Virus record (IMG/VR): IMGVR_UViG_3300030380_000784
Coordinates: 1 to 26,990 of that record
Origin: a virus
Strand: one strand, 5' to 3'
DNA length: 26,990 nucleotides
The position numbers were made by a program, and so were the translations under genes. This document shows positions 1,739-19,825 of this stretch, one piece after another. Every line of letters begins with the position of its first letter. Position 1 is the stretch's first letter. The notes beneath the pieces are model-generated. The model did not search any database, was not told the origin of the DNA, and was given only the letters and a program-made list of their open reading frames with translations.

Positions 1739-1757
1739 TTATATAATGTAAAAAGTT
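1739..1757 (-). promoter_or_regulatory. Repeated late motif, copy A
   Basis: The minus strand reads AACTTTTTACATTATATAA immediately before the ATG of the 177-residue gene; the core TACATTATATAA ends one base before that ATG. Copy B before the tail chaperone gene is nearly identical across 23 bases including the ATG. This copy stands about 20 bases after the U-tract of a strong terminator, where a promoter is needed if the downstream genes are to be transcribed. Promoter function is inferred. Confidence 0.55.
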
Positions 1758-1775
1758 CCTATTTATTTGCTTATA

Positions 1776-1805
1776 TAAAAAAAAGAGTAACCGAAGTTAC
1801 CCTTT
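1776..1805 (-). terminator. Rho-independent terminator with UUCG loop
   Basis: On the minus strand, arms AAAGGGTAAC and GTTACTCTTT flank a TTCG tetraloop and give a 10-bp stem with a single G-U pair. The second arm runs directly into a T-tract, eight Ts in total, and then TATATAAG. This is a classic intrinsic terminator. It lies about 80 bp downstream of the tail tube gene and would end the scaffold-capsid-tail tube transcript before the 177-residue/portal unit. Confidence 0.9.
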
Positions 1806-1885
1806 CTTATGATGAACGCTAGATAAATCTATATAAGGTCGAACCTTACCACCCTCACCAAGCTATAGTAAAACTACAAAGTGTT
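1806..1885 (-). other. Intergenic segment with tandem small hairpins
   Basis: This non-coding stretch between the tail tube stop and the terminator carries two further perfect inverted repeats: TAAGGT/ACCTTA at 1834-1848 and TAGAT/ATCTA at 1820-1831. It also has a G-rich run (GGTGAGGGTGG on the minus strand), so it is less AT-rich than the genes around it. It could be a structured 3' untranslated region that protects the transcript end, or a small RNA. I find no ORF in it. Confidence 0.4.
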
Positions 1886-2449
1886 TTATGATACTACCAT
1901 AGTACCCATAGTAAACGCATTGTTGTCAAATGGTTCACTAGTATAATCTGCTACCATTTGGAATGGCTCATTTTCCATACCATCGAATGTAAGAGTATAA
2001 CCTCCTCTATCCCCAAATGCTGCCCCACTATCCATAGTACCTGCATTTAATTCCATACCATTTAATCTACCAAGACAAACTATTACATTATGCCCATTTG
2101 ATAATGTAGCATTTAATTCAGCAAAGATAATAGTCTTAGTTGCACCTAATAATTTAATTTGGTTTTGGTCTTCTTTTGTAAGTTTATTTAAAATAATGTT
2201 AATTGTAGGAGTATAGAAAATAGTTCCGTTTTCTTTAGAACCTGTAATAGTATCTGTAATACTCGCTACCCCTAAAGGTGTAGTATAACGATATAAAACG
2301 TTTGAACCCATTTCTATATCTGTAACCTCACCATTTGATGCAGGTATTGAAGTTACTTGGTCATATACTGCAAAATAAACATTTTTGATTCCGCCTGATA
2401 CTCTATTGCAATCTAACCCTCTACCTTTTGTTAATGTTCCGCACGCCAT
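1886..2449 (-). CDS. Putative major tail tube protein
   Basis: The 187-residue protein begins MACGTLTKGRGLDCNRVSGG and contains beta-strand and loop patterns that I associate with major tail proteins of Bacteroidota siphoviruses: a segment IIILNKLTKEDQNQIKLLG followed by IFAELNATLSNGHNVIVCLG and a C-terminal part with LNGMELNAGTMDSGAAFGDR and YTLTFDGMENEPF. Tail tube subunits stack as hexamers around the tape measure. The gene follows the major capsid gene with a hairpin between them and is itself followed by a strong terminator, which fits a highly expressed unit. Assignment rests on sequence memory and context. Confidence 0.65.
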   Translation of the reverse strand: MACGTLTKGRGLDCNRVSGGIKNVYFAVYDQVTSIPASNGEVTDIEMGSNVLYRYTTPLGVASITDTITGSKENGTIFYTPTINIILNKLTKEDQNQIKLLGATKTIIFAELNATLSNGHNVIVCLGRLNGMELNAGTMDSGAAFGDRGGYTLTFDGMENEPFQMVADYTSEPFDNNAFTMGTMVVS

Positions 2450-2475
2450 ATTTATTTATGTTTTTAAGGTTAAGG

Positions 2476-2501
2476 AAGTGAGGGTTATTACACCCCCACT
2501 T
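2476..2501 (-). other. Hairpin downstream of the capsid gene
   Basis: On the minus strand, AAGTGGGGGT and ACCCTCACTT pair as a 10-bp stem with one G-U pair around a 6-base loop. What follows (TCCTTAACC) is not a proper U-tract, so it is a weak terminator at best. It may be an attenuator or mRNA-stabilising structure that keeps capsid message above that of the tail tube gene. Confidence 0.5.
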
Positions 2502-2517
2502 TCATTGATTCTAGTTA

Positions 2518-3444
2518 TTATTTAGTTAATACAATATCAGCACCAACACCCTGTATAACACCTGCAGAGTATTTAGCAACTACTCTTAGGTTGTCAGAAC
2601 CATCTAAATCAGTCATATCTAACATCTTGATAGAAGTGTGGTCTGAAACAAGGTCAGTTCCAAAGAATAAATTAGACTTCTCTGCCGCAACTAATACGTC
2701 CTCTTGCATACCTGGACATACAGCCAATTTCGTTCCTTCAAATAAAGGAGCGTAGTCACCTTGCATATTGTAAGCGTTTAAGTAACCGTCAGCCGACATT
2801 TTAGCAATGTACAATCTGTAAGTCTTAGGAGCCATATATATGTGTAAATCTTCTCTTCCGTATACTGCACTTGGTACAGCCGCAAGAGTATTAGTTAAGT
2901 TTGTTACAATGTTAGCTGTAGTATAAGCGTTACCTGCACCACCATCATTAACTACATCAACAACTGTTGCGTCAGTTGCTAAATGTCCACCTGCTCTTGA
3001 GAATCCTGTAAACTCTCCTGCATTACCATCTAAACCATTCCATACAGAAGCCTCTACACCATCTGCAATAATTTGAGAAAAGTAAGAGATTACGTACTCA
3101 TCAAATCTTGGAGAAGTTTGGTTGTTAGCTCCTGCTCTCATATCAGCAGCTTCCCAACTACTTAAAAGTTTTCCTTTACATAAGTCTACGTTAATTTGTA
3201 GATTTTTAGGAGTAATAACTGATTCTGTCATTGTTAGTGTACCTGCATCTGTAAAGTCACAAGTAGCGTCTGCTACTAATGAAGCTCCAGCCATTTTTTG
3301 GATTACTTCTTTGTACTTAATGTTTTCTATCATTGTTAAAAATTCCAATGATTTTGCTTCTTTTAATGCTGCTGAAATATAAAATCCAGCCGCTTTCCCT
3401 GAGTACGAACTTGCCGAAACATCAGGAGTTCCTGTATAAGCCAT
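2518..3444 (-). CDS. Major capsid protein (HK97-fold type)
   Basis: This 308-residue protein builds the phage head shell. It has a typical capsid size, an N-terminal segment rich in small residues, and the order of elements seen in this capsid family: an early IENIKYKEVIQKMAG stretch, a middle FSQIIADGVEASVWNGLDG segment, a later VYGREDLHIYMAPKTYRLY, and a C-terminal part with YAPLFEGTKLAVCPGM and LRVVAKYSAGVIQGVGADIV. It directly follows the acidic scaffold gene with a 5-bp gap, and that gene follows the XkdF-like protease, the usual protease-scaffold-capsid order. A hairpin follows the stop. HK97 fold is inferred from family resemblance. Confidence 0.8.
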   Translation of the reverse strand: MAYTGTPDVSASSYSGKAAGFYISAALKEAKSLEFLTMIENIKYKEVIQKMAGASLVADATCDFTDAGTLTMTESVITPKNLQINVDLCKGKLLSSWEAADMRAGANNQTSPRFDEYVISYFSQIIADGVEASVWNGLDGNAGEFTGFSRAGGHLATDATVVDVVNDGGAGNAYTTANIVTNLTNTLAAVPSAVYGREDLHIYMAPKTYRLYIAKMSADGYLNAYNMQGDYAPLFEGTKLAVCPGMQEDVLVAAEKSNLFFGTDLVSDHTSIKMLDMTDLDGSDNLRVVAKYSAGVIQGVGADIVLTK

Positions 3445-3449
3445 AATTT

Positions 3450-4226
3450 TTAATTTTTATTTGTTAATATATTATTTAATATTCTTTCTCTTTTAGAAAG
3501 GTTTTTGTTTTGTTTTCTTGTTTGATTAAACCAACTATTTGAATCAGAAAAAGCATTAGTATTTAAAGGTTCGTCAGCAGGTGTTTCAGCTAATTGAACT
3601 TTTAACTTTTCGTTTTCTTCTTTTAATTTTTTGATCTCATCTTCTGCACTAAATTGCACAACTTCTGTTGTTTTAGTTGTAACAGTTTTAGGTGAATCAG
3701 ATTTGTCCGTTGCTTCTTCAGTCATTTCAACCTCTTCAGTGTCTCCTTCGCCTAATCTTGCTTTGATGTCAGCAATAGCATCTTCAAGGTTTTCAACTCT
3801 ATCTTTCATCTCTTCATAAGTCTTAGCCCAGTCTGCTTTTTCCGCAGGAGTTTCAGGAAATTCTTCTTCATACTCTTCTTTTTCCTTATCTTCAAATTCA
3901 GCTTTTTCATAAGCCTCATCAGCAGTTAACTCTTCTTTATCATCGCCTGCTTCAATTTCTTCTTCTGTTTCAGATTCCATAACTTCAGCAACAACGCCTT
4001 CTTCTTCAACTCTAAAAGAAACGCCTGTATCTGTCTTATAAGTTCCGATTGGTAATAAAATTGTAGTACCATCTTCAGTCATTACTGAGATGTCTACGCC
4101 TGCTTCCAATTCTTCAGCAGTTGATACGAAGATAGTTCCATCTTCTGATTTACCCTGCCAAGCTAATTTAACTTCTTCATCTTTATTAAGACCAAGAGCT
4201 ACTAGTATTTGTTCTTTGATGTCCAT
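3450..4226 (-). CDS. Acidic coiled-coil scaffold-like protein
   Basis: The 258-residue protein is extremely acidic, with Glu-rich stretches around residues 85-150, and contains coiled-coil segments near residues 140-160 (MKDRVENLEDAIADIKARLG) and 195-215 (IKKLKEENEKLKVQL). The first 85 residues look folded and include EDGTTILLPIGTYKTDTG. Internal scaffolds guide capsid assembly and are usually removed by the head protease. Position between the XkdF-like protease and the capsid gene supports this role. A copy of the repeated TACATTATATAA motif lies 11 bp upstream of its ATG, so scaffold, capsid and tail tube probably form one transcription unit that ends at the UUCG terminator. Confidence 0.7.
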   Translation of the reverse strand: MDIKEQILVALGLNKDEEVKLAWQGKSEDGTIFVSTAEELEAGVDISVMTEDGTTILLPIGTYKTDTGVSFRVEEEGVVAEVMESETEEEIEAGDDKEELTADEAYEKAEFEDKEKEEYEEEFPETPAEKADWAKTYEEMKDRVENLEDAIADIKARLGEGDTEEVEMTEEATDKSDSPKTVTTKTTEVVQFSAEDEIKKLKEENEKLKVQLAETPADEPLNTNAFSDSNSWFNQTRKQNKNLSKRERILNNILTNKN

Positions 4227-4237
4227 AGGTTCTTTTT

Positions 4238-4249
4238 TTATATAATGTA
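4238..4249 (-). promoter_or_regulatory. Repeated late motif, copy D
   Basis: The minus strand reads TACATTATATAA, 11 bp upstream of the scaffold ATG. Unlike copies A, B and C it is not joined directly to the start codon; an A-rich stretch (AAAAAAGAACCT) lies between. Promoter function is inferred from recurrence and position. Confidence 0.5.
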
Positions 4250-4275
4250 ATTAATTAATTTTTATTTGATTTTTA
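4238..4275 (-). repeat. Duplicated intergenic block, copy 1
   Basis: This 38-bp block runs from the repeated motif through the stop codon of the XkdF-like gene. It matches 5789-5826, which runs from motif copy C through the tape measure stop, at all but two positions. Both blocks join a stop codon to the next gene, so the pair looks like a duplicated gene junction. Confidence 0.75.
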
Positions 4276-5235
4276 GATTTTTATATCAGAATATTTTTGC
4301 ATATCATTTACTGCTGCTCTTAAATCATTACTTATTTTAGAACTTTTACTAAAATTAGGAATGTCTCTTGGTGCTAGTCCTAGTTCTTTTGCTTGTTTTT
4401 GTGTTTTTTCTAGTAATGAATTTAATTCTTTAAAAGTAGATTTGCCTTTTTTAATATTGTCACTTCTTCTATCATTAATCTTATTAAAATCATCAGACAA
4501 ACCTCTTAATTCTTGAAATAATTTAGACAATTCTATACTGTCTTTGTTTACACTTTTTTGAATTTCATCTGCTTCAGTATTCAATTTTTTTAAATCATCA
4601 ACAATACCTAACTCAACTTTTTTTGATTTTAGTTCGGTTCTTTCTTTTATTATTTCATTTAAAGCTGATAGTATTTCAGCATCTGTTGGTTTTTTTTCTG
4701 ACATTTTTTGTAGTTTATCTGTGAAGTAACCTTCTATACTAAGACCTTTTAATTCTCCTTCTTTTATCTTTTGCCAAAGGTCATCATTATTTATTTTCAT
4801 TTTAACAAACCAAGTTCCATTAGGCAAATCGTAGCCATACATTTTAGACTTATCCATATCGCCCTCTTTTATCCACGATTCAACTGTTAAAACACCACTC
4901 ACTCTATCTTGATGCTCGTATGTAGCTTTGTGGTGGTTGTTGTGCTTCAAATACAATTCAGAAGCTCTGCGTACTGTATCAGGACTAAAATATACGTAGT
5001 ATTCTGAATCAGTATTAGGATCATATCTAAATATCTGCTTATTTGGTATTAATGCAGGACTTACTAACATTCTTTTTTCTTCATCAACTTTTGCAAATGT
5101 TAAGTTGTTTTTTTCTTTTCCAAAAAATACAAAGTCCTGTTCTATTGCAGGTGAATTTACTAAGCTGATAGCATCTATTGCTAACTCTTGTGAATCATCT
5201 GCTATTACGAGTTCTACTATTCTAGTTTCTTTCAT
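4273..5235 (-). CDS. XkdF-like prohead serine protease with C-terminal coiled coil
   Basis: Residues 1-175 fit the XkdF family of putative phage head serine proteases: ISLVNSPAIEQDFVFF near 23-38, SPALIPNKQIFR at 59-70, YYVYFSPDTVRRASELYLK at 79-97, a His in TYEHQDRVSGVL around 105-115, ESWI at 119-122 and GLSIEGYF at 164-171. Candidate catalytic residues are His108 and a Ser of ESW or GLS; this is inferred. Residues 175-320 form a Lys/Glu-rich coiled coil. Its last part (about 207-300) repeats the module of the neighbouring 180-residue protein, including VELG, VDD, KQAKELGL and DIP. The gene is 9 bp after that neighbour and precedes the scaffold, its expected substrate. Confidence 0.75.
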   Translation of the reverse strand: MKETRIVELVIADDSQELAIDAISLVNSPAIEQDFVFFGKEKNNLTFAKVDEEKRMLVSPALIPNKQIFRYDPNTDSEYYVYFSPDTVRRASELYLKHNNHHKATYEHQDRVSGVLTVESWIKEGDMDKSKMYGYDLPNGTWFVKMKINNDDLWQKIKEGELKGLSIEGYFTDKLQKMSEKKPTDAEILSALNEIIKERTELKSKKVELGIVDDLKKLNTEADEIQKSVNKDSIELSKLFQELRGLSDDFNKINDRRSDNIKKGKSTFKELNSLLEKTQKQAKELGLAPRDIPNFSKSSKISNDLRAAVNDMQKYSDIKI

Positions 5236-5244
5236 ATTATAATT

Positions 5245-5787
5245 TTAAAATGCTGCTTTTATAGTTTTTGCTATTCTATTTGCTTCAAAAAATTCAGCTA
5301 CCATATCTTCTGACCTTTTTATAGCTGCGTTTGCGTTTTTATACGCAGGTATATCATTTACATTAAGTCCTAAATCTTTAGCTTGTTTATTTAAAACATC
5401 TAAATCAGAACTTAATGATTTTATACTTTTATCTAACGAGGTATATAATTTAGATACTTTCGGAAAATCTTTATTTATTGCAGCTATTTTATTATACCAA
5501 TTATCCATTGCAGTATCTAATTTTTTACTATCCTGCTCATAAGATTTTATTAATTTTTCTATATCATCAACTAATCCTAATTCAACTCTTTGTGAACTAA
5601 GATTAAATTCTTTTAATTCTTTTGCGTATTCTTCAAACGATTTTTTTCCTAGTGGTGTTGGATTCATAGTATTATTTTTTTTATAGTAGTCTTTATTTGC
5701 TTCTTCGCATTCTGCTTTAGTATCGTACTTACAAGAGCCTGTTTTGCCCCATTTGTATTTTCCATTTTCACATTGTTCGCACGGCAT
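5245..5787 (-). CDS. Cys-containing N-terminus plus coiled-coil module
   Basis: The 180-residue protein opens with a small Cys-bearing segment (CEQCENGKYKWGKTGSCKY, then AECEE), with cysteines at 3, 6, 19 and 27 that could hold a metal or form disulfides. After a linker, residues 67-165 are a Lys/Asp-rich coiled coil beginning VELGLVDDIEKL and ending LNKQAKDLGLNVNDIPAYK. The same pattern occurs at the C-terminus of the adjacent XkdF-like protease, so the two are paralogous over about 95 residues. Function is unknown; a head-assembly or protease partner is inferred from position. Motif copy C joins directly to its ATG, suggesting it starts a transcript. Confidence 0.65.
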   Translation of the reverse strand: MPCEQCENGKYKWGKTGSCKYDTKAECEEANKDYYKKNNTMNPTPLGKKSFEEYAKELKEFNLSSQRVELGLVDDIEKLIKSYEQDSKKLDTAMDNWYNKIAAINKDFPKVSKLYTSLDKSIKSLSSDLDVLNKQAKDLGLNVNDIPAYKNANAAIKRSEDMVAEFFEANRIAKTIKAAF

Positions 5788-5788
5788 A

Positions 5789-5800
5789 TTATATAATGTA
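5789..5800 (-). promoter_or_regulatory. Repeated late motif, copy C
   Basis: The minus strand reads TACATTATATAATATG, ending in the ATG of the 180-residue gene. The distance from motif to ATG is identical to copies A and B. The upstream AT-rich flank matches copy D rather than A and B. Confidence 0.55.
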
Positions 5801-5826
5801 TTTAATTAATATTTATTTGATTTTTA
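5789..5826 (-). repeat. Duplicated intergenic block, copy 2
   Basis: This 38-bp block includes the tape measure stop codon and motif copy C. It is the partner of 4238-4275, with two mismatches. Confidence 0.75.
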
Positions 5827-7377
5827 AATTGTCGACCTACGTCTAATATTTGCTAATTGGTTTTGGCTATCAGTCATTTCGTCTGTTACAACAAACGCCT
5901 TAGTAGGTTCAGGTGCTATACCTCCACCTAATTCAAATTCTCCTGACATCATTTGAGGTGCAGGTGCTGCGGCTGCTGCTGCTGCTCCTCCTCCACCACC
6001 TCCTCCACTACCTACGTCTTGTGATAGTATTTTTTGTACGTTAGCTAATCCTCCTGCAATTACTGCTGCTGCTGTAACAAATCCAAGTGTACCTCCCTGT
6101 GCAAACGCTTTGTTTGCCCCTGCATATGTATCTATAACTGCTGCGGCTACTGCTAACGCTTTATTGTCTCCTGCTAGTCCACTTAATGCTCCTGCTAATT
6201 GTCCTGCTGCTTGTATTTCTGCATTCACTTGGTCTTTCTTGATTTTCTTTTTGTCTTTAGCTGCTTTTGCTTCTATTTTAGTTGTAGATACACCTGCTAA
6301 TTTCGCTAATCTAATTTGTTCTTGTGTATTAGCATCTAACTCTGCTAATTCTCTTTCTTTAGCGTCCATACCTTCTAATGCAGCTTGAGTTTTTGCATCT
6401 CTTAATTCATTTTCTAAGGCTACTTGATTAGTAAGCTGTTCTGACAATTGCCCATTGATTGCTTCTTCAAGTTCTAGCATTTCAATTTCTTTAGCCATTA
6501 ATGCTAATTTATTTTCATCACTTGCATTAGTTTCAACTGCTAATGCTAAAGCATCTATTTCAGTTTGTAATGCTGCCTTTTGTGCGTTTTGTTGTTCTTC
6601 TAATATTTTACTTAACCTTTCGTTTGCTTCTATACGTTCTTGGAATGTTAAGTTTACATTGTCTCTTATTTGTCTTTCATCTTCAGCAGCTTTTAGATTC
6701 TCAGCTTGTAATTTTCTAACCTCTAGTTCAGCGAATTGTGCTGCTTTATTTGCTGCTACTTGTGCCTTTGCACCTTTTACTACTTCTGTCGTGTAGTCTA
6801 CTATTGTGTTTTTTACATCTTCATAACTGTCATCAACTCCTGTTATTACATCAACAGCTTCTTTTCCTGCTTCTTTTACTTCTTCTAATGCACCTTTGAA
6901 ATCTCCTTTAAATAATTTATTAAACGCACCACTAAGTCTACTTACTACATCTCCTGCTTGTTCAAATCTTTTTATAAAACCCTCTTGTATAGCATCACTA
7001 AAATCACTAATGGCTTGTTTTGGGTCCTCGAATAACGCTTTGAATGCTGCTTTAATAGGTTCTACATTGTCAGATATTACTTTAAATAAATCGTTGAACA
7101 TTATTTTCAATGATTCCATAACAACATTGAAGCTATCTACAACCTTTTGATTACTCATAAATACTTCTTTCAGAACTTCAAACGCTTTACTCAATAACGC
7201 TACAATTCCTGCCGCTTTCATTAAATTACCAAAACTTACGCCAAGTTTTTTAACACCTGAACTTGCTGTTTTCGTTGCCTTACCCACATTTTCTGTGTTC
7301 TTAGCAACTTCTTCCATTCCTTTTGCTACTTCTCCTGTGTTTGAATCTATTCTTGCGTTTAATACTGCGTCTGCCAT
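5824..7377 (-). CDS. Tape measure protein
   Basis: The 517-residue protein is long, helical, and rich in Ala, Lys and Glu, with heptad-like stretches through the middle (for example around residues 205-385). The N-terminal part (ADAVLNARIDSNTGEVAKG, then ENVGKATKTASSGVKKLG) is typical of tape measure proteins, and a hydrophobic segment (GNLMKAAGIVALLSKAFEVL) follows. Near residues 400-450 there is an Ala-rich, hydrophobic stretch that may insert in a membrane. A run of glycines then alanines at about 456-471 makes a flexible linker. Tape measures set tail length; at roughly 0.15 nm per residue this predicts a tail of about 75-80 nm. It follows the fibre-like gene by 12 bp. Confidence 0.8.
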   Translation of the reverse strand: MADAVLNARIDSNTGEVAKGMEEVAKNTENVGKATKTASSGVKKLGVSFGNLMKAAGIVALLSKAFEVLKEVFMSNQKVVDSFNVVMESLKIMFNDLFKVISDNVEPIKAAFKALFEDPKQAISDFSDAIQEGFIKRFEQAGDVVSRLSGAFNKLFKGDFKGALEEVKEAGKEAVDVITGVDDSYEDVKNTIVDYTTEVVKGAKAQVAANKAAQFAELEVRKLQAENLKAAEDERQIRDNVNLTFQERIEANERLSKILEEQQNAQKAALQTEIDALALAVETNASDENKLALMAKEIEMLELEEAINGQLSEQLTNQVALENELRDAKTQAALEGMDAKERELAELDANTQEQIRLAKLAGVSTTKIEAKAAKDKKKIKKDQVNAEIQAAGQLAGALSGLAGDNKALAVAAAVIDTYAGANKAFAQGGTLGFVTAAAVIAGGLANVQKILSQDVGSGGGGGGGAAAAAAAPAPQMMSGEFELGGGIAPEPTKAFVVTDEMTDSQNQLANIRRRSTI

Positions 7378-7389
7378 ATCTTTATTTTT

Positions 7390-8280
7390 TTATACTAATT
7401 CTCCAAAAATTAGTTGTGTTATTTGTACATTACATACCCATTCTATTGTCTGATTTGCTGCACCCCTACATTTTAAAGCAAGCGTACTACCTGTTGCACT
7501 TTTTTCAGCTAGAACTCGCCAATTTGTAATAGTTCCAGAAGTCTTAATTATATCTCTTTCTCTTTGTATGCTAGTTGTGCCTGCATTGTTTACCATAACT
7601 CCTCTTTCAACTGCTGAATAATAATCTCCTACTGCTCCTGAACCTGAACCTGCTGTTCTGAAGCCAATAGTTTCTGCGTGAAAGTATATAACAGAATTTT
7701 CTACAACTGTAAATCTTTCTCCTGATTTGTTATTCATACCTAAAGAAACATTAGCAGTACCTGTAGTTTGTCCTCCATACATTACTCTTATTGACTGTCT
7801 TGTACCTAATACATCGCTTGCCTGATTACCTCCTATCACTAAACTGTTATCTGCCGTAACATTAGCTTTTCTTCCTATCATTAAAGAGTTTTGTATATTA
7901 GCATTTACTCTATTTTGATACCCTAATACTAGATTGTTTTTACTTTGTCTAAATGCTTCATTTTGATCTCCTATCATTCTAGTATTTTCTACTCCTATGT
8001 ATGATGTGTTACCTTTACCTGTAAATGAATTGTTAGTATTTTGAAATTCGTTCATCAAAGTAACATTATTTTTAAAAGCATAACAAGTACCTGTAACTTC
8101 ATCATACTCATAACCATAAGTACGACATTCATCTCTATTAGGAAGAATATCATTAGTGCCATCTGTAAAAACTACAACACCACTAGGCTCTATATTCTTT
8201 GGCTTTATACCTATTAAAAAAGGAGTTGATGTTGTTTCAACTTTTGTAACTGTTGGGGCTGTTCTATATATTATTGTCAT
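7390..8280 (-). CDS. Tail fibre or spike with YadA-head-like repeats
   Basis: The 296-residue protein has a segment at about residues 90-152 with repeats of roughly 15 residues built on a hydrophobic-IG/LG core: SYIG, RMIG, LVLG, LMIG, LVIG, each with Asn or Ala turns. This pattern is like the left-handed beta-roll repeats of YadA-type trimeric adhesin heads, which also occur in phage fibres. Before it lies a Cys pair (DECRTYGYEYDEVTGTCYAF, cysteines 52 and 66). The C-terminal 140 residues look beta-rich. It overlaps the end of the 976-residue tail gene by 4 bp (ATGA), so the two are translationally coupled. A host-binding role is inferred. Confidence 0.65.
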   Translation of the reverse strand: MTIIYRTAPTVTKVETTSTPFLIGIKPKNIEPSGVVVFTDGTNDILPNRDECRTYGYEYDEVTGTCYAFKNNVTLMNEFQNTNNSFTGKGNTSYIGVENTRMIGDQNEAFRQSKNNLVLGYQNRVNANIQNSLMIGRKANVTADNSLVIGGNQASDVLGTRQSIRVMYGGQTTGTANVSLGMNNKSGERFTVVENSVIYFHAETIGFRTAGSGSGAVGDYYSAVERGVMVNNAGTTSIQRERDIIKTSGTITNWRVLAEKSATGSTLALKCRGAANQTIEWVCNVQITQLIFGELV

Positions 8281-11207: not shown

Positions 11208-11208
11208 A

Positions 11209-12681
11209 TTATACCGATTGTGTTCTTAATGTTTTAGTTTTTTCAACCTCAAAAGTGTATTGTATCAACTTATCATTTGCTACTGTTTTTCTTGTATATG
11301 AAGTTGTTTTCAAAGTAACAGGAGTTACATATTGATTTAATGCTGAATGCGATTGATCAGTTTGTTTTGGTTCTATAATATAAATTTCAGGACTATTCAT
11401 TAAGTCTTCGAACCAAGCAGATTCTTCGTCTGTAACAAAATCTGTATTTATTTTAATTCTTTCAGTTGCATTTACTCTAAATGTTTTTTTACCACCTCTG
11501 TGGCTTGCCATTTGATATGTACCTTTATTCCATTGTCCTTGTAATGGCTGGTATTTTGTACTTTTGGTACTAAGCGACCTAACAGACTTCATATTAAAAG
11601 TATAATAATCCCAAGCTCCCCATTGATTTAACCAAGTTAACCTGATTGATTCGTAACCTTTATTAGAAGGGCAGTTGATATATATTCTATATTGTTGTGA
11701 TAAATTTTGTCCTGAAGATGCTTCTGCTCTTATCGTGTAGTAAGCAACAGCATTAGGATTGCAAGTAAAACTAGAAAATGCTTGAAGCACATTAGCAGGA
11801 CCGCAACCAAAAAATATTTGTTTATTGTAAACGTAATTAAAATTAGTACTCTGAAAATTAGAACTAAAACCACCATTTGAGCTACCTGTAATGTAGTAAT
11901 AATGTCCACCACCTACAGCTCCACCACTATGGTCGTATCTTTGAAATTTAATTCTATTTACACCATTAGCATTTGCTTGAAATATATCTTCTAATAGCAT
12001 TATAGACATAGTCATATAATCATTTTGGTTAGCATACTGATATAATGGTGCATTAGTCATAAACTCTTTTGAATCACTACTTAATCTAAATCTATCTCGT
12101 AAATCATAACCTAAATCAACATCATATATACCACCCTTACGCTCTATTACATCTGTATGTTTTAGGTAGCCATTATACAATACATACTCTGTTGAATTTA
12201 CTGTAGTATTTGTACTATACACTTGGTTTGTGCTAGTGTCATACCATTCAGTTCTAAATTGTATTTTAAACCATATTGTGCTATTTGTAGACCTCGAAAA
12301 TTTATCTACCATATGAATCGGTACAGGTTTATTTTCTGTTACATCAACTTGCTTGTATTCTGCGTTTGCACCGTTTGGGTCTGAAAATGGGTTTGTCCAT
12401 ATTTCATTATCTGCACTTACATAAGATTGTAACAGGTCGCTAAAATCAAATATTCCTGCTCCTGCATTATTCGGAGTGGTTTTAAAATCACCAATTTTAT
12501 ATTCTGCTGAAGTAGATACAGTATCTGCTTCTGATATGAATAATCTTGCATTGTGCTTAACTCTAATTTCATTTGCAACTACTTGATTGTTTTCTACCAC
12601 GAAAATAATTGGCTGTCCTGCAACTAATTGCTCAAATCTTGGTTTCTGTACTATTTGTGTCTGTCCGTATGTTGTTGGCAT
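11209..12681 (-). CDS. Tail/baseplate structural protein
   Basis: The 490-residue protein is beta-rich with many Thr, Asn and Tyr residues and no transmembrane segment. It has an N-terminal part (GQTQIVQKPRFEQLVAGQPI) and a C-terminal part (FRVNATERIKINTDF, then SAWFEDLMNSPEIYIIE) that resemble distal tail proteins of Bacteroidota phages. The pairing with the 976-residue gene (one-base gap) suggests both sit at the tail tip. I do not recognise a defined catalytic domain. The start at 12681 is the first ATG after the upstream gene, with a 4-bp gap. Confidence 0.6.
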   Translation of the reverse strand: MPTTYGQTQIVQKPRFEQLVAGQPIIFVVENNQVVANEIRVKHNARLFISEADTVSTSAEYKIGDFKTTPNNAGAGIFDFSDLLQSYVSADNEIWTNPFSDPNGANAEYKQVDVTENKPVPIHMVDKFSRSTNSTIWFKIQFRTEWYDTSTNQVYSTNTTVNSTEYVLYNGYLKHTDVIERKGGIYDVDLGYDLRDRFRLSSDSKEFMTNAPLYQYANQNDYMTMSIMLLEDIFQANANGVNRIKFQRYDHSGGAVGGGHYYYITGSSNGGFSSNFQSTNFNYVYNKQIFFGCGPANVLQAFSSFTCNPNAVAYYTIRAEASSGQNLSQQYRIYINCPSNKGYESIRLTWLNQWGAWDYYTFNMKSVRSLSTKSTKYQPLQGQWNKGTYQMASHRGGKKTFRVNATERIKINTDFVTDEESAWFEDLMNSPEIYIIEPKQTDQSHSALNQYVTPVTLKTTSYTRKTVANDKLIQYTFEVEKTKTLRTQSV

Positions 12682-12685
12682 AATC

Positions 12686-13270
12686 TTATTCTTTTTTCCA
12701 ACCGACTTTTTCTAGTCCGTCTAATATATCTAATTTAATTGCTTGTAATGTTTCGTCTCCTAATACATTTTCTATTGAACTTCTTAATGCTGATTGAAAG
12801 AAGCTGATACCATGAATACCTCTAATCCATATATTTCTAACGATTAAATACTTTAATCCTTTAGGAGATAAATATTGACCTTTTGCGTCTCTTGGCTGTA
12901 AATTCTTTTTTCTAATAAATGAAGCAATACCTCTAGTCAATCCACCTTTCTTTCCTGTACCTCTACCATACTTGTATGGACTGTCTTGCCTTTTTCCTTT
13001 GTAATTTATAAACCATCTACGACCTCCCCAACTTCCTGCGTATTTACCATTTGGTATTTCTCCTCCTGTTCCTTTTACACCCTTATCTACGAAAGTACCA
13101 TAATCTGCCATAAGAAACTGTAGAGAATATCCATCTCCTGTTTGCTTGACAACTGCTTTTATAGACTTCTCTAGCTTACCACCTCCCTTACCTGCTTTAC
13201 GTAGGTTTTTTCTAGCTTGTCTTACAAACTGCTTTCCTATAGATTCTAATCTTCTTTCAAAGTTTTTCAT
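12686..13270 (-). CDS. HK97 gp10-like neck/tail component
   Basis: The 194-residue basic protein has an N-terminal helix with Arg/Lys residues (ERRLESIGKQFVRQARKNLRK), a GKLEKSIKAVVKQ turn, and the motif LMADYGTFVDKGVKGTGG. The YGTFVDKG element is typical of the HK97 gp10-like family, which takes part in head-tail joining or tail completion. A Lys/Arg/Gly-rich middle (about residues 75-130) is unusual in length and could bind nucleic acid or be a flexible loop. The start at 13270 overlaps the upstream stop codon by one base. Confidence 0.65.
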   Translation of the reverse strand: MKNFERRLESIGKQFVRQARKNLRKAGKGGGKLEKSIKAVVKQTGDGYSLQFLMADYGTFVDKGVKGTGGEIPNGKYAGSWGGRRWFINYKGKRQDSPYKYGRGTGKKGGLTRGIASFIRKKNLQPRDAKGQYLSPKGLKYLIVRNIWIRGIHGISFFQSALRSSIENVLGDETLQAIKLDILDGLEKVGWKKE

Positions 13271-13719
13271 TACACTAATCCAACGAATATTTCACATTGA
13301 ACATCTGTAGTTGCGCTAGGTTTAGCTTGTATTGTTACTACATCTGCTAATCCACTAAATGCAGGAGTACTATCAGCTTCACCTAATACACCATCTTCTG
13401 CTTGAAATAATACGTGAGAACCACCTGCTCTTACAGTAACTTGATAATTAGTTCCTGAAGTTACAAACGCTAATATCATATCGTCAGTAGTGCTAAGATT
13501 AGTTACTCTAATATACTTTGCATTTTCTACATCTAATGCTCCTGCTGAAGAATGAGGAGTTGAACCAAATGTTGCTATTGTTGTTGTGTTAGAATGTGCT
13601 AAAGTAAGTATTCTTTCCATTACATCTACAATATTAGGAGTAGTTATTGTATTGGTAGAACCTCTTGTAGCCCCATTCAAGATTACCGATTCTGTAATTG
13701 TTGTTGTTAAATCTGCCAT
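13270..13719 (-). CDS. Small Thr-rich virion protein, unknown
   Basis: The 149-residue protein has high Thr, Ala and Val content and few charged residues, with strands such as AKYIRVTNLSTTDDMILAFV and YQVTVRAGGSHVLFQ. This suggests a compact beta-sandwich decoration or tail protein. It is in the tail-completion segment between a conserved 116-residue protein and the gp10-like gene, whose start overlaps its stop by one base. No specific function is recognised. Confidence 0.55.
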   Translation of the reverse strand: MADLTTTITESVILNGATRGSTNTITTPNIVDVMERILTLAHSNTTTIATFGSTPHSSAGALDVENAKYIRVTNLSTTDDMILAFVTSGTNYQVTVRAGGSHVLFQAEDGVLGEADSTPAFSGLADVVTIQAKPSATTDVQCEIFVGLV

Positions 13720-13723
13720 AATT

Positions 13724-14074
13724 TTATTTTTTGTCTATTTGTTTTAATTTATTAATTGCCCAATTTATTCCTGACGAACCTCCCCAAGCGTCCCACATTA
13801 ATCCGCCACAACCTTCTGAGTAGGGTACATCTTTATTTTGTTGATGTCTTTTAAATGAAGCCATACGAGCTATTGTATCACGACTAATAGGCTTTCTGTC
13901 TGCTAACTGAGCTGACCTAGTCCAACCTACTCTAGTTCCGCAATCAGATCCATTTTCTTCTTTCCATTTTCTAGCACGTTTTGCATTGTTTGTAGCAGCT
14001 TGCGGATAGTCTGTATAGCTTTCAAGATTTATGCTAATTGCTTCTAGTTTTTCTAATACATCTTCGTAGTTCAT
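13724..14074 (-). CDS. Conserved small phage protein with Trp/Gly-rich C-terminus
   Basis: The 116-residue protein has a distinctive core: YPQAATNNAKRARKWKEENG, CGTRVGWTRSAQLADRKPIS, then TIARMASFKRHQQNKD and CGGLMWDAWGG near the C-terminus. I recognise this as a small domain found alone or fused to larger proteins in many phages, without a firm function. Two Cys residues and many Arg/Trp residues suggest a compact, possibly DNA-contacting fold. Its ATG overlaps the stop of a 29-residue ORF upstream as ATGA, so it is probably translated by coupling. Confidence 0.6.
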   Translation of the reverse strand: MNYEDVLEKLEAISINLESYTDYPQAATNNAKRARKWKEENGSDCGTRVGWTRSAQLADRKPISRDTIARMASFKRHQQNKDVPYSEGCGGLMWDAWGGSSGINWAINKLKQIDKK

Positions 14075-14160
14075 ATTTTTATTCTTATTGTAGGTGGTAT
14101 TAATTGAATTTCTACCTTACCTAATTTAATCTTGTTTATTTTTTTTAAATATTCAATCAT
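14071..14160 (-). CDS. 29-residue basic peptide ORF
   Basis: A 29-codon ORF (start MIEYLKKINKIKLGK) fills the gap between the 199-residue tail gene and the 116-residue gene. Its ATG comes one base after the upstream stop, and its TGA overlaps the next ATG (ATGA). Spacing like this suggests it is translated, even if its main use is to carry ribosomes to the next gene. The peptide is basic, with no recognised function. Confidence 0.4.
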   Translation of the reverse strand: MIEYLKKINKIKLGKVEIQLIPPTIRIKI

Positions 14161-14161
14161 A

Positions 14162-14761
14162 TTAATATCCTGCTCCTCTTGTTAATGGTATTGGTGCGTT
14201 ACAAGCATCAAAATTATTCTGTACTAAAATTCCCATATTAAAAACCCAACCAACACAAAGGTTATCAAACCTTTCTGAAAAGGGCTCTATTGTAAACTGC
14301 CCTTCTGTAAAATATATAGGGGCATTTATGTCATTAGCATTGTGTTCAGATGGAGTAGATGTAAATTTAGATTGCTGTATTGAGTGCCTTAACATACTAA
14401 TAAAATCTGTACATACTTGTAGCATTTCACTATATACTGTCTGCTCATTATTTAATGTCTTATAAAGTTTATTGAATGTGCTTGTTGCATCAGGATTAGG
14501 GGTTCCTGCGGGTGCCCTATTTTGTGTCCAATTACTTTCTTCTGTTACCATTGACATTACAAAAATTTGAAAATTATACGTCAATGTAGAATCTCCTGTA
14601 GTTACATTAGTTGGTGTAATATGTAGTAATGGAAATTTTGTATTCTTTTCAAGGTCTATGTCAAATATATCTCCTACGCTTGTAGTTTGTATTCCTTGAT
14701 ATTTTTCCCCTATATGCAGTAAAGTGTTTACTACGTTGTTGTATGTTTTATTGTGTACCAT
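14162..14761 (-). CDS. Putative tail completion/terminator protein
   Basis: The 199-residue protein follows the T part of the tail chaperone with a 14-bp overlap. It starts MVHNKTYNNVVNTLLHIGEK, then has strand-like segments (KFPLLHITPTNVTTG; LTYNFQIFVMSMV), a helix (VYSEMLQVCTDFISMLRHSI), and a C-terminal part with FTIEPFSERFDNLCVGWVFNM. The mix of strands with a long helix, size and place next to gp10-like and chaperone genes fit tail terminator or completion proteins. Function is inferred from context. Confidence 0.5.
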   Translation of the reverse strand: MVHNKTYNNVVNTLLHIGEKYQGIQTTSVGDIFDIDLEKNTKFPLLHITPTNVTTGDSTLTYNFQIFVMSMVTEESNWTQNRAPAGTPNPDATSTFNKLYKTLNNEQTVYSEMLQVCTDFISMLRHSIQQSKFTSTPSEHNANDINAPIYFTEGQFTIEPFSERFDNLCVGWVFNMGILVQNNFDACNAPIPLTRGAGY

Positions 14762-15005
14762 CTAATCTTACTTTATTTTGTGAATTTAAATCTGTTTCGT
14801 AACTTAACCAAGTCAAGCATTCTAACAAACCCAAATTTGTTATACTTTCTAATTTACTAATATCTTGATTACAGAGCCTGTGCATCACTCCGAACCAACC
14901 CCACTTTTCTGCAAAGCTTTCGCTTGCAATTGCATTCTCGTTTCCTTCAGCTTCTTTGTCAAAAATGATGGCAAAGCTATCAAGAGTTCTTTGACGAAAT
15001 TCCAA
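14748..15005 (-). CDS. Tail assembly chaperone T part, made by -1 frameshift
   Basis: This frame overlaps the 3' end of the G gene by 121 bp in the -1 frame. It has no ATG; its first possible codon is a TTG that lies inside a run of nine Ts in G. In lambda-type phages the tail chaperone gene is read as G and, after rare -1 slippage, as G-T. Here slippage on TTT TTT would fuse 174 residues of G to 85 residues of T, giving about 259 residues. The T part contains EKWGWFGVMHRLCNQDISKL and LLECLTWLSYETD, patterns I associate with T-type domains of related phages. Independent start at TTG is a less likely alternative. Confidence 0.75.
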   Translation of the reverse strand: MEFRQRTLDSFAIIFDKEAEGNENAIASESFAEKWGWFGVMHRLCNQDISKLESITNLGLLECLTWLSYETDLNSQNKVRLDGTQ

Positions 15006-15526
15006 AAAAAAACCAGAGCAGATTGCACTTCTTCTGCTTTCATCTTCTTCATTATCTCTGTTCTAATCTCAATATCTCCATCATACTTTTCTATTGTATA
15101 TATTTTGTTCTTCTTTTCAACTATTGGTCTATACAATATAGCCATTATTTCAGGCAAATGTTTTTGTATCCCTAACTTAATGAAAGTCTCTAAATCTGCA
15201 AACTCACCGAGAGTAATTCTGTCTAAACTAGGGTGGAATCCATATTCTTTGCCTTCAACTTTTATTATTCTTTTTAGACTTCCGTTTGCTTGTTGTTGTA
15301 ACGTAGATACCCTGTCCATAATTGTAGCTACATCTGATATGCTTAGTTGATTAATTAAATCATCAGGTATATTTGATAATTGCTTCAATGTACTCAATGC
15401 TTCTTCCGATGCTCCTGCTTCTTCTAGACTTACAATATTTAGCCATTTTTCTAAAGTAACTTCTGACCAACTTTTAATTACTTGGTAGCTTTTTATTTTG
15501 TCATCTTTTTTAATCTTGACCTTCAT
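14885..15526 (-). CDS. Tail assembly chaperone G
   Basis: This 213-residue protein is the short product of the G/GT pair. Such chaperones coat the tape measure and recruit tail tube subunits during tail assembly, and are not in the virion. It contains WSEVTLEKWLNIVSLEE near the N-terminus and HPSLDRITLGEFADLETFIK near residues 97-116; the latter motif is common in Bacteroidota phage G proteins. The last 39 residues (after the slip site) are replaced by T on frameshifting. The ATG at 15526 is joined directly to motif copy B, so it probably opens the tail transcript. Confidence 0.75.
   Translation of the reverse strand: MKVKIKKDDKIKSYQVIKSWSEVTLEKWLNIVSLEEAGASEEALSTLKQLSNIPDDLINQLSISDVATIMDRVSTLQQQANGSLKRIIKVEGKEYGFHPSLDRITLGEFADLETFIKLGIQKHLPEIMAILYRPIVEKKNKIYTIEKYDGDIEIRTEIMKKMKAEEVQSALVFFWNFVKELLIALPSFLTKKLKETRMQLQAKALQKSGVGSE
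15004..15012 (-). promoter_or_regulatory. -1 ribosomal frameshift site (run of nine Ts)
   Basis: The minus strand reads GGTTTTTTTTTGG, which in the G frame is GTT TTT TTT TGG. Tandem slippage of two Phe codons by one base moves the ribosome into the T frame (TTG GAA TTT). It contains a U UUU UUU slippery heptamer. Position near the 3' end of G is the same as in other G/GT pairs. Confidence 0.75.
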
Positions 15527-15527
15527 A

Positions 15528-15546
15528 ATATATAATGTAAAAAGTT
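15528..15546 (-). promoter_or_regulatory. Repeated late motif, copy B
   Basis: The minus strand reads AACTTTTTACATTATATAT and then TATG, the ATG of tail chaperone G. The match to copy A is 22 of 23 bases including the ATG. It may be the promoter of the tail gene transcript. Confidence 0.55.
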
Positions 15547-15606
15547 TGTATTTAGTTTAAAGTTATTATATTTGCCGCTCATTTCTTAAATTGTTTCCAT
15601 TTCTCT

Positions 15607-15633
15607 AGGGGGGTTGTCAATCTGACGCCCCCT
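15607..15633 (-). other. GC-rich hairpin directly after terL
   Basis: On the minus strand AGGGGG and CCCCCT pair as a 6-bp stem, with an inner GTC/GAC stem around a 5-base loop. It begins 3 bp after the terL stop. No U-tract follows, so it is not a standard terminator. A G/C run of this kind is rare in this AT-rich sequence. It could be an mRNA end structure or a protein-binding site. Confidence 0.5.
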
Positions 15634-15636
15634 TTC

Positions 15637-16839
15637 TCATTGTACAAAATACCTACCTGCGTTAGGATTGTCTAAGTGGTATATAACATTATATCTCACC
15701 CCATCTATTGCGTGATTATATGCGTCTACATATAATTTAGAAGATTTGTCGCTGAATATATAATTATTTAATTCTTTAGCTATATTAGTAGATTCTGGAG
15801 ATACAACTAAATGAAAGTCTTGCATTCTTGTAATACCACTTTCAATAGTTCCTTTTTTTACAGGTTTTATATTAACACCTAAATGCTTTAAATCTGCTAT
15901 AAGTCTAGGCTCTGCACTATCTGCAATAATAAGCTTATTGCCGACCTTGTCTAATACTATCTTTGCTAATTCATGTGACTTCAAGCCATTCTGATATATA
16001 TGTTCTTTTAAATATATCTTCATTTTCTTTTTATCTATTGCAATTTCTGTTAAAGAATCAGGATCAACTGAGAATCCAAAGTCCATTCCACAACTAGTCT
16101 GTAAATTGTCTGGATTAAATTCTCCTATACTCCAATTAGTAAATACAACACCCTCTGCTTTGTCTAACCAGCCACCTAATATCTTATGATTATATTTCTT
16201 AAAGTTATTATGTCTTATAGTCTTAATACGCTCTAAGAAGCTCTTAGACAGATTATCTTTATTGTCTAGGTATGTACTATGGATATAACATACATTGCCT
16301 TTAGAGCCATTAAAACCTGCTTCTACGCCTTTGCTTTCAAAGAACCTTCTGTATATCCAATGCTCTTTAGTAACAGGATTGAGTATAAGTATAATTCTAT
16401 TTTGCACATCTTTTTCTCTAATACTTAAATCAATAGTATCAAATATATCTTCATCTATTAATTCTTCTGCTTCATCTAATATCCAATTTGAAATACCTTG
16501 TAATGACTTTAAACTAGCAGTCTGATTACCTGCCGAAGTCTTTATACCTCTGAATAGTATATCACTCTTATTTCCTAAGTTTACAACCTCAGACTTATTA
16601 ACACTAAATATATTTTCAAATCCTAGTAGACTTATCTTTTCTAAAAATTCAGGTATTATAGATAAGTGAGCTGATACCATTGTATATCTTGTGAATAGTA
16701 TTCTTATATTTTTAGACATTGTAAGTAATGTCAGAAATACTGTAACAGCAAATGATTTTCCAGAACCACGACCTCCTGTTATTATAAAGTATCGTGCATC
16801 AGAATTAAATAGTGCTTGATATTTCTTATTCAGTTTCAG
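15637..16839 (-). CDS. terL: Terminase large subunit, non-canonical start
   Basis: TerL is the packaging motor: an ATPase joined to an RNase H-fold nuclease. Counting from a CTG at 16839 (400 residues), Walker A GGRGSGKS lies at 22-29, Walker B WILDEAEE around 119-126, and the nuclease acidic residues in GMDFGFSVD (Asp253), IIADSAEP (Asp307) and HAIDGVRY (Asp379). It fits the Terminase_3 family. The only ATG near the start (16719) is after Walker A and would delete it. Upstream of Walker A the frame is open to a TAG at 16845-16843 and holds no ATG, GTG or TTG; two CTG codons (16839 and 16833) are the best starts. The gene overlaps terS by 14 bp. A sequencing error or a +1 shift at the terS end are alternatives. 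Confidence 0.85.
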   Translation of the reverse strand: MKLNKKYQALFNSDARYFIITGGRGSGKSFAVTVFLTLLTMSKNIRILFTRYTMVSAHLSIIPEFLEKISLLGFENIFSVNKSEVVNLGNKSDILFRGIKTSAGNQTASLKSLQGISNWILDEAEELIDEDIFDTIDLSIREKDVQNRIILILNPVTKEHWIYRRFFESKGVEAGFNGSKGNVCYIHSTYLDNKDNLSKSFLERIKTIRHNNFKKYNHKILGGWLDKAEGVVFTNWSIGEFNPDNLQTSCGMDFGFSVDPDSLTEIAIDKKKMKIYLKEHIYQNGLKSHELAKIVLDKVGNKLIIADSAEPRLIADLKHLGVNIKPVKKGTIESGITRMQDFHLVVSPESTNIAKELNNYIFSDKSSKLYVDAYNHAIDGVRYNVIYHLDNPNAGRYFVQ

Positions 16840-17086
16840 TTTCTACAAAGTTTATTAGTGGCATATTAATACTTTCATCATTAGTAGTTACGTCTACTCT
16901 TTGTTGTGGTTTACCATAAAAATACTCAAAGAATAATTTAACTGCCCATTGTTCTTTTTTATCTAATCCTTGTTCTAAGGACTTTAATGCCTTACTATTC
17001 ATAGGAGTCAAATGCTCTATTAACTTTTGCTCCTCTGCTTTGCTTTTGCGTCCTGCGCCTTCTCTTTTACCTCCGTGTGTACTCAT
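16826..17086 (-). CDS. terS: Terminase small subunit
   Basis: This 86-residue basic protein precedes terL. TerS recognises the phage DNA packaging site and regulates TerL. It begins with GGKREGAGRKSK, a flexible basic lead common in phage TerS proteins, then helices with LTPMNSKALKSLEQGL and a segment WAVKLFFEYFYGKPQQRVDV whose YGKPQQ turn is characteristic of the family. It is short for TerS, without a long C-terminal domain. Its last 17 bases overlap the open terL frame. Motif copy E lies 31 bp upstream of the ATG. Confidence 0.8.
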   Translation of the reverse strand: MSTHGGKREGAGRKSKAEEQKLIEHLTPMNSKALKSLEQGLDKKEQWAVKLFFEYFYGKPQQRVDVTTNDESINMPLINFVETETE

Positions 17087-17117
17087 CTTGAAAAAACTTG
17101 ATTATTCAACTTGTTTA

Positions 17118-17129
17118 TTATATAATGTA
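17118..17129 (-). promoter_or_regulatory. Repeated late motif, copy E
   Basis: The minus strand reads TACATTATATAA directly after the stop codon of the NinB-like gene and 31 bp before the terS ATG. If the motif is a late promoter, this copy would switch transcription from the early block to packaging genes. Confidence 0.5.
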
Positions 17130-17131
17130 AA

Positions 17132-17515
17132 TTATTCATATTCATTTGGTAGCATTAGTCTTATATTCAATTCGCTTAACGCCCATATTCTTATTTGCTC
17201 TGCATATATCTCAAACTCTTTAGTATCCATTGTAGCTGTGCTATTGATTACTTGCAGACCTACTTTATTGTTATTTACTTCTATGCTTTGCCACTCACTT
17301 GCAAACTTTACTTTAAGTATATCATGGATTTCATTTGGGTAATAGCCTAATTCTTCTGATAGTGTTTGTACTATACATTTCCAATAATAATTATTTTGCA
17401 TAATTGATCTGTTATTCCGTTGCTTTTTTACATCTACTATATAATCATTACCTAATTCTTTTAAGTAATTAATTAGCATTTGCTTATCTCTACTATCTTT
17501 TATTACAAACTTCAT
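17132..17515 (-). CDS. ninB: NinB-like recombination protein
   Basis: The 127-residue protein matches the layout of lambda NinB (Orf), a recombination mediator that binds ssDNA and helps load strand-exchange functions. The RNNRSIMQNNYYWKCI segment (about residues 33-48) parallels the ERNRSLDQN motif of NinB, and STATMDTKEFEIYAEQI with IRIWALSELNIRL near the C-terminus parallels its STSRM...EFAELLELI part. The start overlaps the upstream stop by one base. With NinG at 19826-20245 it gives a nin-type recombination pair. Assignment is by motif memory. Confidence 0.7.
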   Translation of the reverse strand: MKFVIKDSRDKQMLINYLKELGNDYIVDVKKQRNNRSIMQNNYYWKCIVQTLSEELGYYPNEIHDILKVKFASEWQSIEVNNNKVGLQVINSTATMDTKEFEIYAEQIRIWALSELNIRLMLPNEYE

Positions 17516-18385: not shown

Positions 18386-18783
18386 TGTTTATTGTATTTG
18401 TTATATAATTTTTTAATACCATCATAACAAGTAGATATACAAGAGCCACAATTAGTGTTAGGATTGTAACCTGTTGCGTATATAGTGTTATATATATCTA
18501 TCATCTTGTTTTTTGCTTTTACATCTTTTGCTACTCCTGTTTTCAAATCTTCCCATAATATTGTTATTTCATCAATTATGTCTTGCGGTAATTCATCAGG
18601 CTCAGGTATGCTTGTAGTTTTGTTCCAATATTTTTTAGGACAACTCATAGGGGCTAATCTTGCCTTCACTTTCATGAAGCATTTACATATACCACAATTA
18701 CCTAATAAACTTAAATAATGTACACAAGATTTGCATATTGCTATTCTATCTTGATATATGTTATCAGGTACAAAAAATCTCAT
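18382..18783 (-). CDS. Cys-rich zinc-binding-type phage protein
   Basis: The 133-residue protein has two Cys clusters. The first (about residues 17-48) is CKSCVHYLSLLGNCGICKCF followed by ARLAPMSCPKKYW, with a spacing typical of a zinc ribbon. The second, near the C-terminus, is CGSCISTCYDGIKKLY. I recognise this architecture from small early genes of Bacteroidota phages but know no function. The start overlaps the stop of a 35-residue ORF (ATGA). Confidence 0.6.
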   Translation of the reverse strand: MRFFVPDNIYQDRIAICKSCVHYLSLLGNCGICKCFMKVKARLAPMSCPKKYWNKTTSIPEPDELPQDIIDEITILWEDLKTGVAKDVKAKNKMIDIYNTIYATGYNPNTNCGSCISTCYDGIKKLYNKYNKQ

Positions 18784-18887
18784 TTAGTCCATCTTCTTTT
18801 GTATTTATAATCTTTTGGTGCTTTAAAGCCAAACATCATTACCCAAGTATTATTTTTTATAGAATCATATAGCTTAACTTTCTTCAT
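18780..18887 (-). CDS. 35-residue basic peptide ORF
   Basis: The ORF starts MKKVKLYDSIKNNTWVMMFG and ends in a basic tail (YKYKRRWTK). It overlaps the end of the sigma-like gene by 14 bp, and its TGA overlaps the next ATG as ATGA. It fills the 90-bp space between the two genes. Tyr/Trp/Lys-rich with no hydrophobic helix; function unknown. Confidence 0.5.
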   Translation of the reverse strand: MKKVKLYDSIKNNTWVMMFGFKAPKDYKYKRRWTK

Positions 18888-19455: not shown

Positions 19456-19804
19456 CAGTTGGCTCTAATTTTTCTATCTTACTTATTAATTGATCTAACA
19501 TTTCTGCTAATATTACTCTATATGCTCTTATTTTAGCTGTATTTCTTTTGGTTTCAATACCTGCAAAATATCCCTGTATCATTACTGAAACATTTATTGG
19601 TATAATCATAAGCCAATCCCAATAGTTGTTTTCACGTTTACCTTTTCCATAGTTGTTATGATATTCTAAAATCACATCTAAAACTTCATTATAGTTGTCG
19701 TATCTTGTTGGATTGCTTACTTCTTGTACAAAGTCATTGCACATTGTTAGATAGCTTTCTACTGCTTGTTTATGTTCTTCATTAGCATATATTGGCACTA
19801 TCAT
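19448..19804 (-). CDS. Unknown early protein
   Basis: The 118-residue protein shows a largely helical pattern with EEHKQAVESYLTMCNDFVQE near the start and a C-terminal helix (KIRAYRVILAEMLDQLISKI). A short hydrophobic stretch (WLMIIPINVSVMIQGYF) in the middle could be buried or membrane-associated. Its stop overlaps the sigma-like gene start by 8 bp. No family is recognised. Confidence 0.5.
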   Translation of the reverse strand: MIVPIYANEEHKQAVESYLTMCNDFVQEVSNPTRYDNYNEVLDVILEYHNNYGKGKRENNYWDWLMIIPINVSVMIQGYFAGIETKRNTAKIRAYRVILAEMLDQLISKIEKLEPTDE

Positions 19805-19825
19805 ACGCCAAAGTTAAGAAAAAAG

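Follow-up and report, generated by a model that had tools for sequence, protein, structure and literature searches.

What reads the short element that recurs upstream of five structural and packaging genes in the virus record IMGVR_UViG_3300030380_000784? This record of IMG/VR comprises 26,990 bp, nearly all of its genes lie on the minus strand, and we refer to its whole length as the window. The initial annotation had noticed five copies of a 12-nt motif and had suggested a promoter, with an RNA-processing or translation signal as the alternative. We found that each copy is the downstream half of a two-box element that is conserved before the same five genes in related phages and is functional sequence. 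Judged from sequence, the five elements are very probably late promoters for the genes that build the particle, and their reader is probably a sigma factor encoded by the phage itself, which resembles the extracytoplasmic function (ECF) type. Such a late promoter would consist of two boxes, [CA]AA[AC]T[AG]AA upstream and T[AC][CT]AT(TATATA) downstream, with 19 bp from the first base of the former to the first base of the latter. We consider it quite likely that the explanation holds as a whole, with five late promoters read by the phage's own ECF-like sigma, which is itself made from a host-type promoter.

All five copies were found again at the positions first reported for them and on the minus strand; four read TACATTATATAA and the fifth, at 15528-15539, reads TACATTATATAT. 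Putative promoter A (1739-1769, minus strand, as are the other promoters and the genes that they precede) combines the box CAAATAAA at 1762-1769 with TACATTATATAA at 1739-1750 and stands before a 177-aa gene (1204-1737), the first gene of transcription unit A, which is followed by the portal gene. The same two sequences recur at 4261-4268 and 4238-4249 (element 4238-4268) before a 258-aa scaffold-like gene (3450-4226), and at 5812-5819 and 5789-5800 (promoter C, 5789-5819) before a 180-aa Cys/coiled-coil gene (5245-5787). Promoter B (15528-15558) pairs the box AAACTAAA at 15551-15558 with TACATTATATAT and precedes a 213-aa gene in a tail-chaperone-like position (14885-15526). The fifth element (17118-17148) pairs CAAATGAA at 17141-17148 with TACATTATATAA at 17118-17129; it lies before a terS-like gene (16826-17086), upstream of terL (15637 to about 16840). 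The downstream genes are those that had been named originally. From the first T of the downstream box to the ATG there are 13 nt at each of copies A, B and C, an equality that had also been pointed out, 23 nt at the scaffold gene and 43 nt at terS.

All five copies of the motif lie on the coding strand and, as had been claimed, in non-coding sequence, which makes up 4.4% of the window; the upstream box of the terS promoter sits inside the 3' end of a 127-aa gene. The plus strand of the window holds no exact copy of the element. Copies with one mismatch do occur elsewhere in the window, for example at 18711-18722 within a gene, and the two-box form is found at the five sites only. Under Markov models of order 1-5, TACATTATATA[AT] was expected 0.03-0.12 times and observed 5 times, and the full two-box element was likewise observed 5 times in the window against 0 to 0.005 expected. 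An 11-mer repeated at least five times nevertheless arises in roughly 10% of simulated 27-kb AT-rich sequences. Since such repeats are not rare in AT-rich DNA, repetition alone says little, and we therefore examined relatives; the significance of the element rests on its placement, its second box and its conservation. A generic scan for sigma-70 promoters and terminators was uninformative and gave the same promoter counts as shuffled sequences. The strong terminator described before copy A is real in sequence terms: a hairpin at 1779-1808 (minus strand), between a 187-aa gene and promoter A, has a 13-pair stem and a U tail (-12.3 kcal/mol).

Scanning IMG/VR with the terminase gave 80 loci of 86-94% identity. 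We fetched the full contigs, mapped the genes by tblastn and sought the element up to 90 nt upstream of each. In relatives whose terminase is about 84-94% identical, T[AC][CT]ATTATAT was present upstream of 195 of 201 homologs of the five genes versus 2 of 1082 homologs of 38 other genes, counts in which the homologs are mutually related and not independent; despite this kinship the pattern by gene is unambiguous. It was found at 62/62 terS genes, 80/81 genes for the 213-aa protein, 19/23 for the 180-aa Cys protein, 18/18 scaffold genes and 16/17 for the 177-aa protein. The element is restricted in relatives to the first genes of units and is lacking at operon-internal genes. A literal search for TACATTATATA had given the first impression that it was missing from most relatives, which a word count corrected. 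The most over-represented coding-strand 10-mer in the relatives was TCTATTATAT (159 seen versus 5 expected), and it occupies the same places as TACATTATATA in the closest relatives of the window. Most relatives read TCTATTATATA where the window reads TACATTATATA, so that the second and third bases are CT and not AC. Absence of the motif at the same genes in close relatives had been named as the observation that would count against its function; the element is present there, mostly with CT for AC. Most exceptions are decayed forms, such as TCTATATATTATT or TCTATATAATAAT, in which the upstream box is retained.

The upstream box emerged from sites that were aligned and selected on the downstream box only. 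It begins 19 nt before the downstream box in 192 of 196 sites and 20 nt before it in three, and A stands at -18 and -17 in 100% of the 149 distinct sites, while the sequence between the two boxes is weakly conserved. In decayed sites TCTAT is preserved and the following TATATA varies, which fits the proposal that TACATT is the -10-like part. In relatives, the ATG lies 13-27 nt from the first T at most of the genes, 23-42 nt from it at the scaffold gene and 40-45 nt at terS. Because this distance varies from 13 to 45 nt, we read the element as a bipartite promoter and not as a ribosome-binding or processing signal. Strong support for a promoter comes from the rigid spacing of the boxes, from their varying distance to the ATG and from the recurrence of the element at the same five genes in dozens of relatives. 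In one relative (G010; loci L101 and L102), two extra copies of the promoter lie upstream of a diverged terS region, one of them before a homolog of an 84-aa gene.

The putative reader is a 193-aa protein (18874-19455, minus strand) that matches a sigma-factor family, PHROG 1740 (E 1.6e-7), and its gene was found in every contig that spans its place. The initial annotation had recovered the downstream motif and had overlooked the upstream box, this gene and its host-type promoter. Pfam and PDB sequence searches gave only sub-threshold matches, and we therefore predicted the structure. The AlphaFold2 model, built from 29 aligned sequences, has two helical domains, with helices at residues 2-86, a low-confidence linker at 88-126 and helices at 125-188. 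This layout, sigma2 at about 1-86, a linker and sigma4 at about 125-188, matches the ECF pattern of sigma2 and sigma4 only. ECF sigma factors top the list of Foldseek matches in the PDB (best E-value 0.0074), and proteins annotated as ECF or sigma-70 factors are among the matches to viral models. The C-terminal domain can be superposed on region 4 of E. coli sigmaE bound to -35 DNA (2h27, 1.8 A, TMt 0.81).

The sigma gene is the second gene of a two-gene operon, whose first gene (19448-19804, minus strand) encodes a 118-aa protein and overlaps it by 8 nt. A host-type -7 box, TAACTTTG (19809-19816, minus strand), lies 12 nt before the ATG of the 118-aa gene and is a predicted host sigmaA promoter. 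A TAnnTTTG box stands 11-12 nt before the ATG of this operon in all 32 distinct relatives (32/32), and on this ground we propose a cascade that would lead from host sigmaA to the phage sigma and on to the late promoters. The 118-aa protein is always paired with the sigma gene; its four-helix model (predicted local distance difference test, pLDDT, 90) weakly resembles Avd, an accessory protein of diversity-generating retroelements, and had no significant match in the PDB.

The sigma protein varies together with the promoter. ECF sigmas grip a flipped -10 base with a loop (PMC6411747), and the corresponding place in the predicted model, between helices 46-74 and 79-86, is occupied by residues 75-78 (CKNN), a candidate specificity loop that separates the third and fourth main sigma2 helices. 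This loop varies together with positions 2-3 of the promoter, probably via one switch. Counted with the strict two-box pattern, since the loose pattern was too noisy, sigmas with an RS[NPS] loop have TCT promoters in 118 of 120 sites (74 sigma/site sets), and those with non-RS loops (NSKYSR or TCKNNA) have TAC or TAT in 30 of 30 sites (11 sets). The most divergent sigma, G015C4, has an RS loop together with TCT sites, and the TAC-type sigmas fall outside a supported TCT clade (98/98).

Several observations weigh against a phage ECF-like sigma as the reader. The Pfam scores of the 193-aa protein are below the cut-offs (Sigma70_r4, 17.4 bits versus 24.1; Sigma70_r4_2, 17.7 versus 25.7), and the Pfam search gave no match to region 2. 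As no Pfam score exceeds its cut-off, we call the protein ECF-like and do not file it as a member of the ECF family. The structural model is of moderate confidence (mean pLDDT 71.5; predicted template modelling score 0.49), and its Foldseek search against the PDB returned no match below E 0.001. A single evolutionary switch may explain the covariation, which is not independent of phylogeny, and contig L004 is mixed, with an RS loop beside one TAC site and a decayed site of TCT-like form. The covariation is for these two reasons suggestive rather than proof. The host, too, is one that we infer to be of the Flavobacteriia type, from the relatives and the host-type promoter box.

The alternative that survives best keeps the elements as promoters and has them read by host sigmaA, with a phage activator, comparable to MotA of T4, bound at the upstream box. 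With the first T placed at -12, this box would fall at about -31 to -24, and TACATT has TA..TT in common with the host -7 box TAnnTTTG (PMC6847099). Most relatives, however, have TCTATT and so lack the host-box A, none has the TG of TTTG, and these genomes use the host box at another place, before the sigma operon. It is, moreover, the loop of the phage sigma and not some activator that follows the change in the downstream box, and we regard this alternative as unlikely. A host ECF sigma is a still less probable reader. Flavobacteria have several such factors, 7 in F. psychrophilum (PMC9723704), and the spacing of the element is ECF-like, but a host factor would not follow the phage phylogeny in this manner, with a phage sigma conserved across the group and a loop that co-varies with the promoter. 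Slightly less probable again is a signal in the RNA, a translation enhancer or a processing site. The element abuts the ATG at three genes, and Bacteroidota lack Shine-Dalgarno sequences (PMC6847099); a signal in the RNA is nevertheless disfavoured by the variable distance to the ATG, by the restriction to first genes of units and by two boxes set rigidly 19 bp apart, a layout typical of promoters. A chance repeat in AT-rich sequence, which the simulated 11-mers would allow, has a negligible probability, being refuted by conservation at homologous genes and by the second box, with the placement also counting against it.

On the preferred reading, in which the phage sigma recognizes the late promoters, the two-gene sigma operon would be transcribed earlier from the host sigmaA-type promoter. 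Host RNA polymerase carrying the phage sigma would then read the late promoters, with sigma4 on the upstream box and sigma2 on the downstream box. Five units would be switched on: terS-terL; the 213-aa gene with tail genes; the 180-aa Cys gene with a protease; scaffold and capsid; and the 177-aa gene with the portal gene. The protease would be the 320-aa product of the gene that follows the 180-aa Cys gene, which has a phage protease XkdF-like domain (Pfam E 1.3e-17). The lysis block would presumably be transcribed by read-through from the last unit. The geometry also predicts where transcripts begin. Transcription would start 10-12 nt past the first T if this T is taken as -12, and equally if the flipped base of an ECF-type -10 box is the second or third one; the leader at copies A, B and C would thus be about 1-3 nt long. 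Leaderless mRNAs make up only 5.5% in F. psychrophilum (PMC9723704), and in F. johnsoniae leaders longer than 10 nt are found on 87% of the transcripts that have a probable promoter (PMC6847099). By this geometry, the start predicted at three of the five genes falls 0-3 nt before the AUG, and their mRNAs would have little or no leader.

Phages with a sigma-like factor, such as T4 (gp55) and SPO1 (gp28, gp33/34), use the host sigma for early genes, and the phage factor then redirects the host core polymerase to late promoters before structural genes. In T4, a late promoter consists of one TATAAATA box, and gp33 and the sliding clamp are required for its use. The strategy proposed for the window is the same, a phage sigma-like factor for late structural genes. 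In contrast to T4, the factor in the window is ECF-like with both sigma2 and sigma4, and its putative promoters have two boxes; the conserved upstream box sets them apart from the T4 type, with its single TATAAATA box and no upstream box. The window shares with ECF systems such as E. coli sigmaE and M. tuberculosis sigmaH (PMC6411747) the two helical domains and linker, a rigid distance between two boxes and the AA[AC] core of the upstream one; in the predicted model, a candidate for the short loop by which ECF sigmas set -10 specificity precedes the last sigma2 helix. Unlike ECF promoters, the upstream box is A/T-rich and not GGAAC, and the downstream box is T[AC][CT]AT and not CGT/GTC. The window sigma further differs in being phage-borne, in its sub-threshold sequence match and in that no anti-sigma factor was identified. 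The consensus of Bacteroidota sigmaA is TTTG / TAHHTTTG with T at -12 (PMC6847099); the putative promoter of the sigma operon is of the same type, whereas the TTTG of the -7 box is missing from the five late elements, which read T[AC][CT]ATTATATA instead.

Among isolates, the best match of the terminase is to the Nonlabens phages P12024S/L (65% identity). In these Inhavirus isolates (loci L085 and L086) a sigma-70 region 2 gene (gp33/gp35) lies just upstream of terL. Before structural genes of P12024S we found seven AAAAC-N16/17-CGTTA elements, with 12 nt from the C to the ATG at six and 11 nt at the seventh. The box sequences differ from those of the window; the layout is alike and fits ECF promoters. 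The window sigma and P12024S gp33 are remotely similar, with only the first 50 residues aligning (hhalign probability 53%). The P12024S/L elements are a candidate late-promoter family that would serve an analogous regulon, and our literature searches found no published description of P12024S/L promoters.

Some further observations concern the record and its genes. A 275-aa frame at 26163-26990 matches the C-terminal part of a portal family, and both ends of the record fall inside the portal gene, which argues for a circularly permuted genome that is close to complete. Contigs of the phage group (L081, L082 and L083) are binned in metagenome-assembled genomes labelled Euryarchaeota SP3063 and Pseudooceanicola SP158, most likely through contamination. 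Upstream of the Walker A motif of TerL (16719-16842, minus strand) there is no ATG, GTG or TTG start; in the window and in relatives the frame opens directly after a stop, and CTG codons overlap the end of terS (AAACTGAAACTGAATAAG), which suggests a CTG start or a frameshift from terS. The leader predicted for late terS transcripts (about 17087-17117, minus strand) carries the palindrome TTGA[A/T]TAATCAA, kept in nearly all relatives, which may form a weak hairpin before a T-rich stretch and may act as an operator, an attenuator or a terminator of early transcription. A second frame at 14748-15005 (minus strand), which overlaps the 213-aa gene, begins just past a T run (about 15004-15012) and is a candidate for a tail-chaperone frameshift.

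How the phages of marine Flavobacteriia regulate their genes has hardly been studied. Our literature searches brought up no description of late promoters or sigma factors in flavobacterial phages, and those on phage-encoded ECF factors and late genes and on leaderless late promoters returned papers on the jumbo phage AR9 only, in which a phage RNA polymerase recognizes the promoters. Late promoters driven by a phage sigma are already known; the variant described here is new in that the factor is ECF-like, that the promoters have two boxes and probably leave almost no leader, and that specificity has switched naturally, with sigma and promoter co-evolving. We would give even odds to the broader claim that a widespread lineage of uncultivated marine phages has its own ECF-like sigma and leaderless late promoters, and that loop and promoter switched together (TCT to TAC). 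If this is true, the lineage holds a natural record of promoter-sigma co-evolution, and a leaderless start is the rule for several structural genes, though such mRNAs are a small minority in the host group. The proposal offers a complete testable circuit of a host promoter, a phage sigma and five late units, a predicted code of sigma-promoter specificity with a natural switch, and a late-gene marker for uncultivated phages. It could also yield orthogonal pairs of sigma and promoter for use in Bacteroidota, a group in which expression signals are not those of other bacteria.

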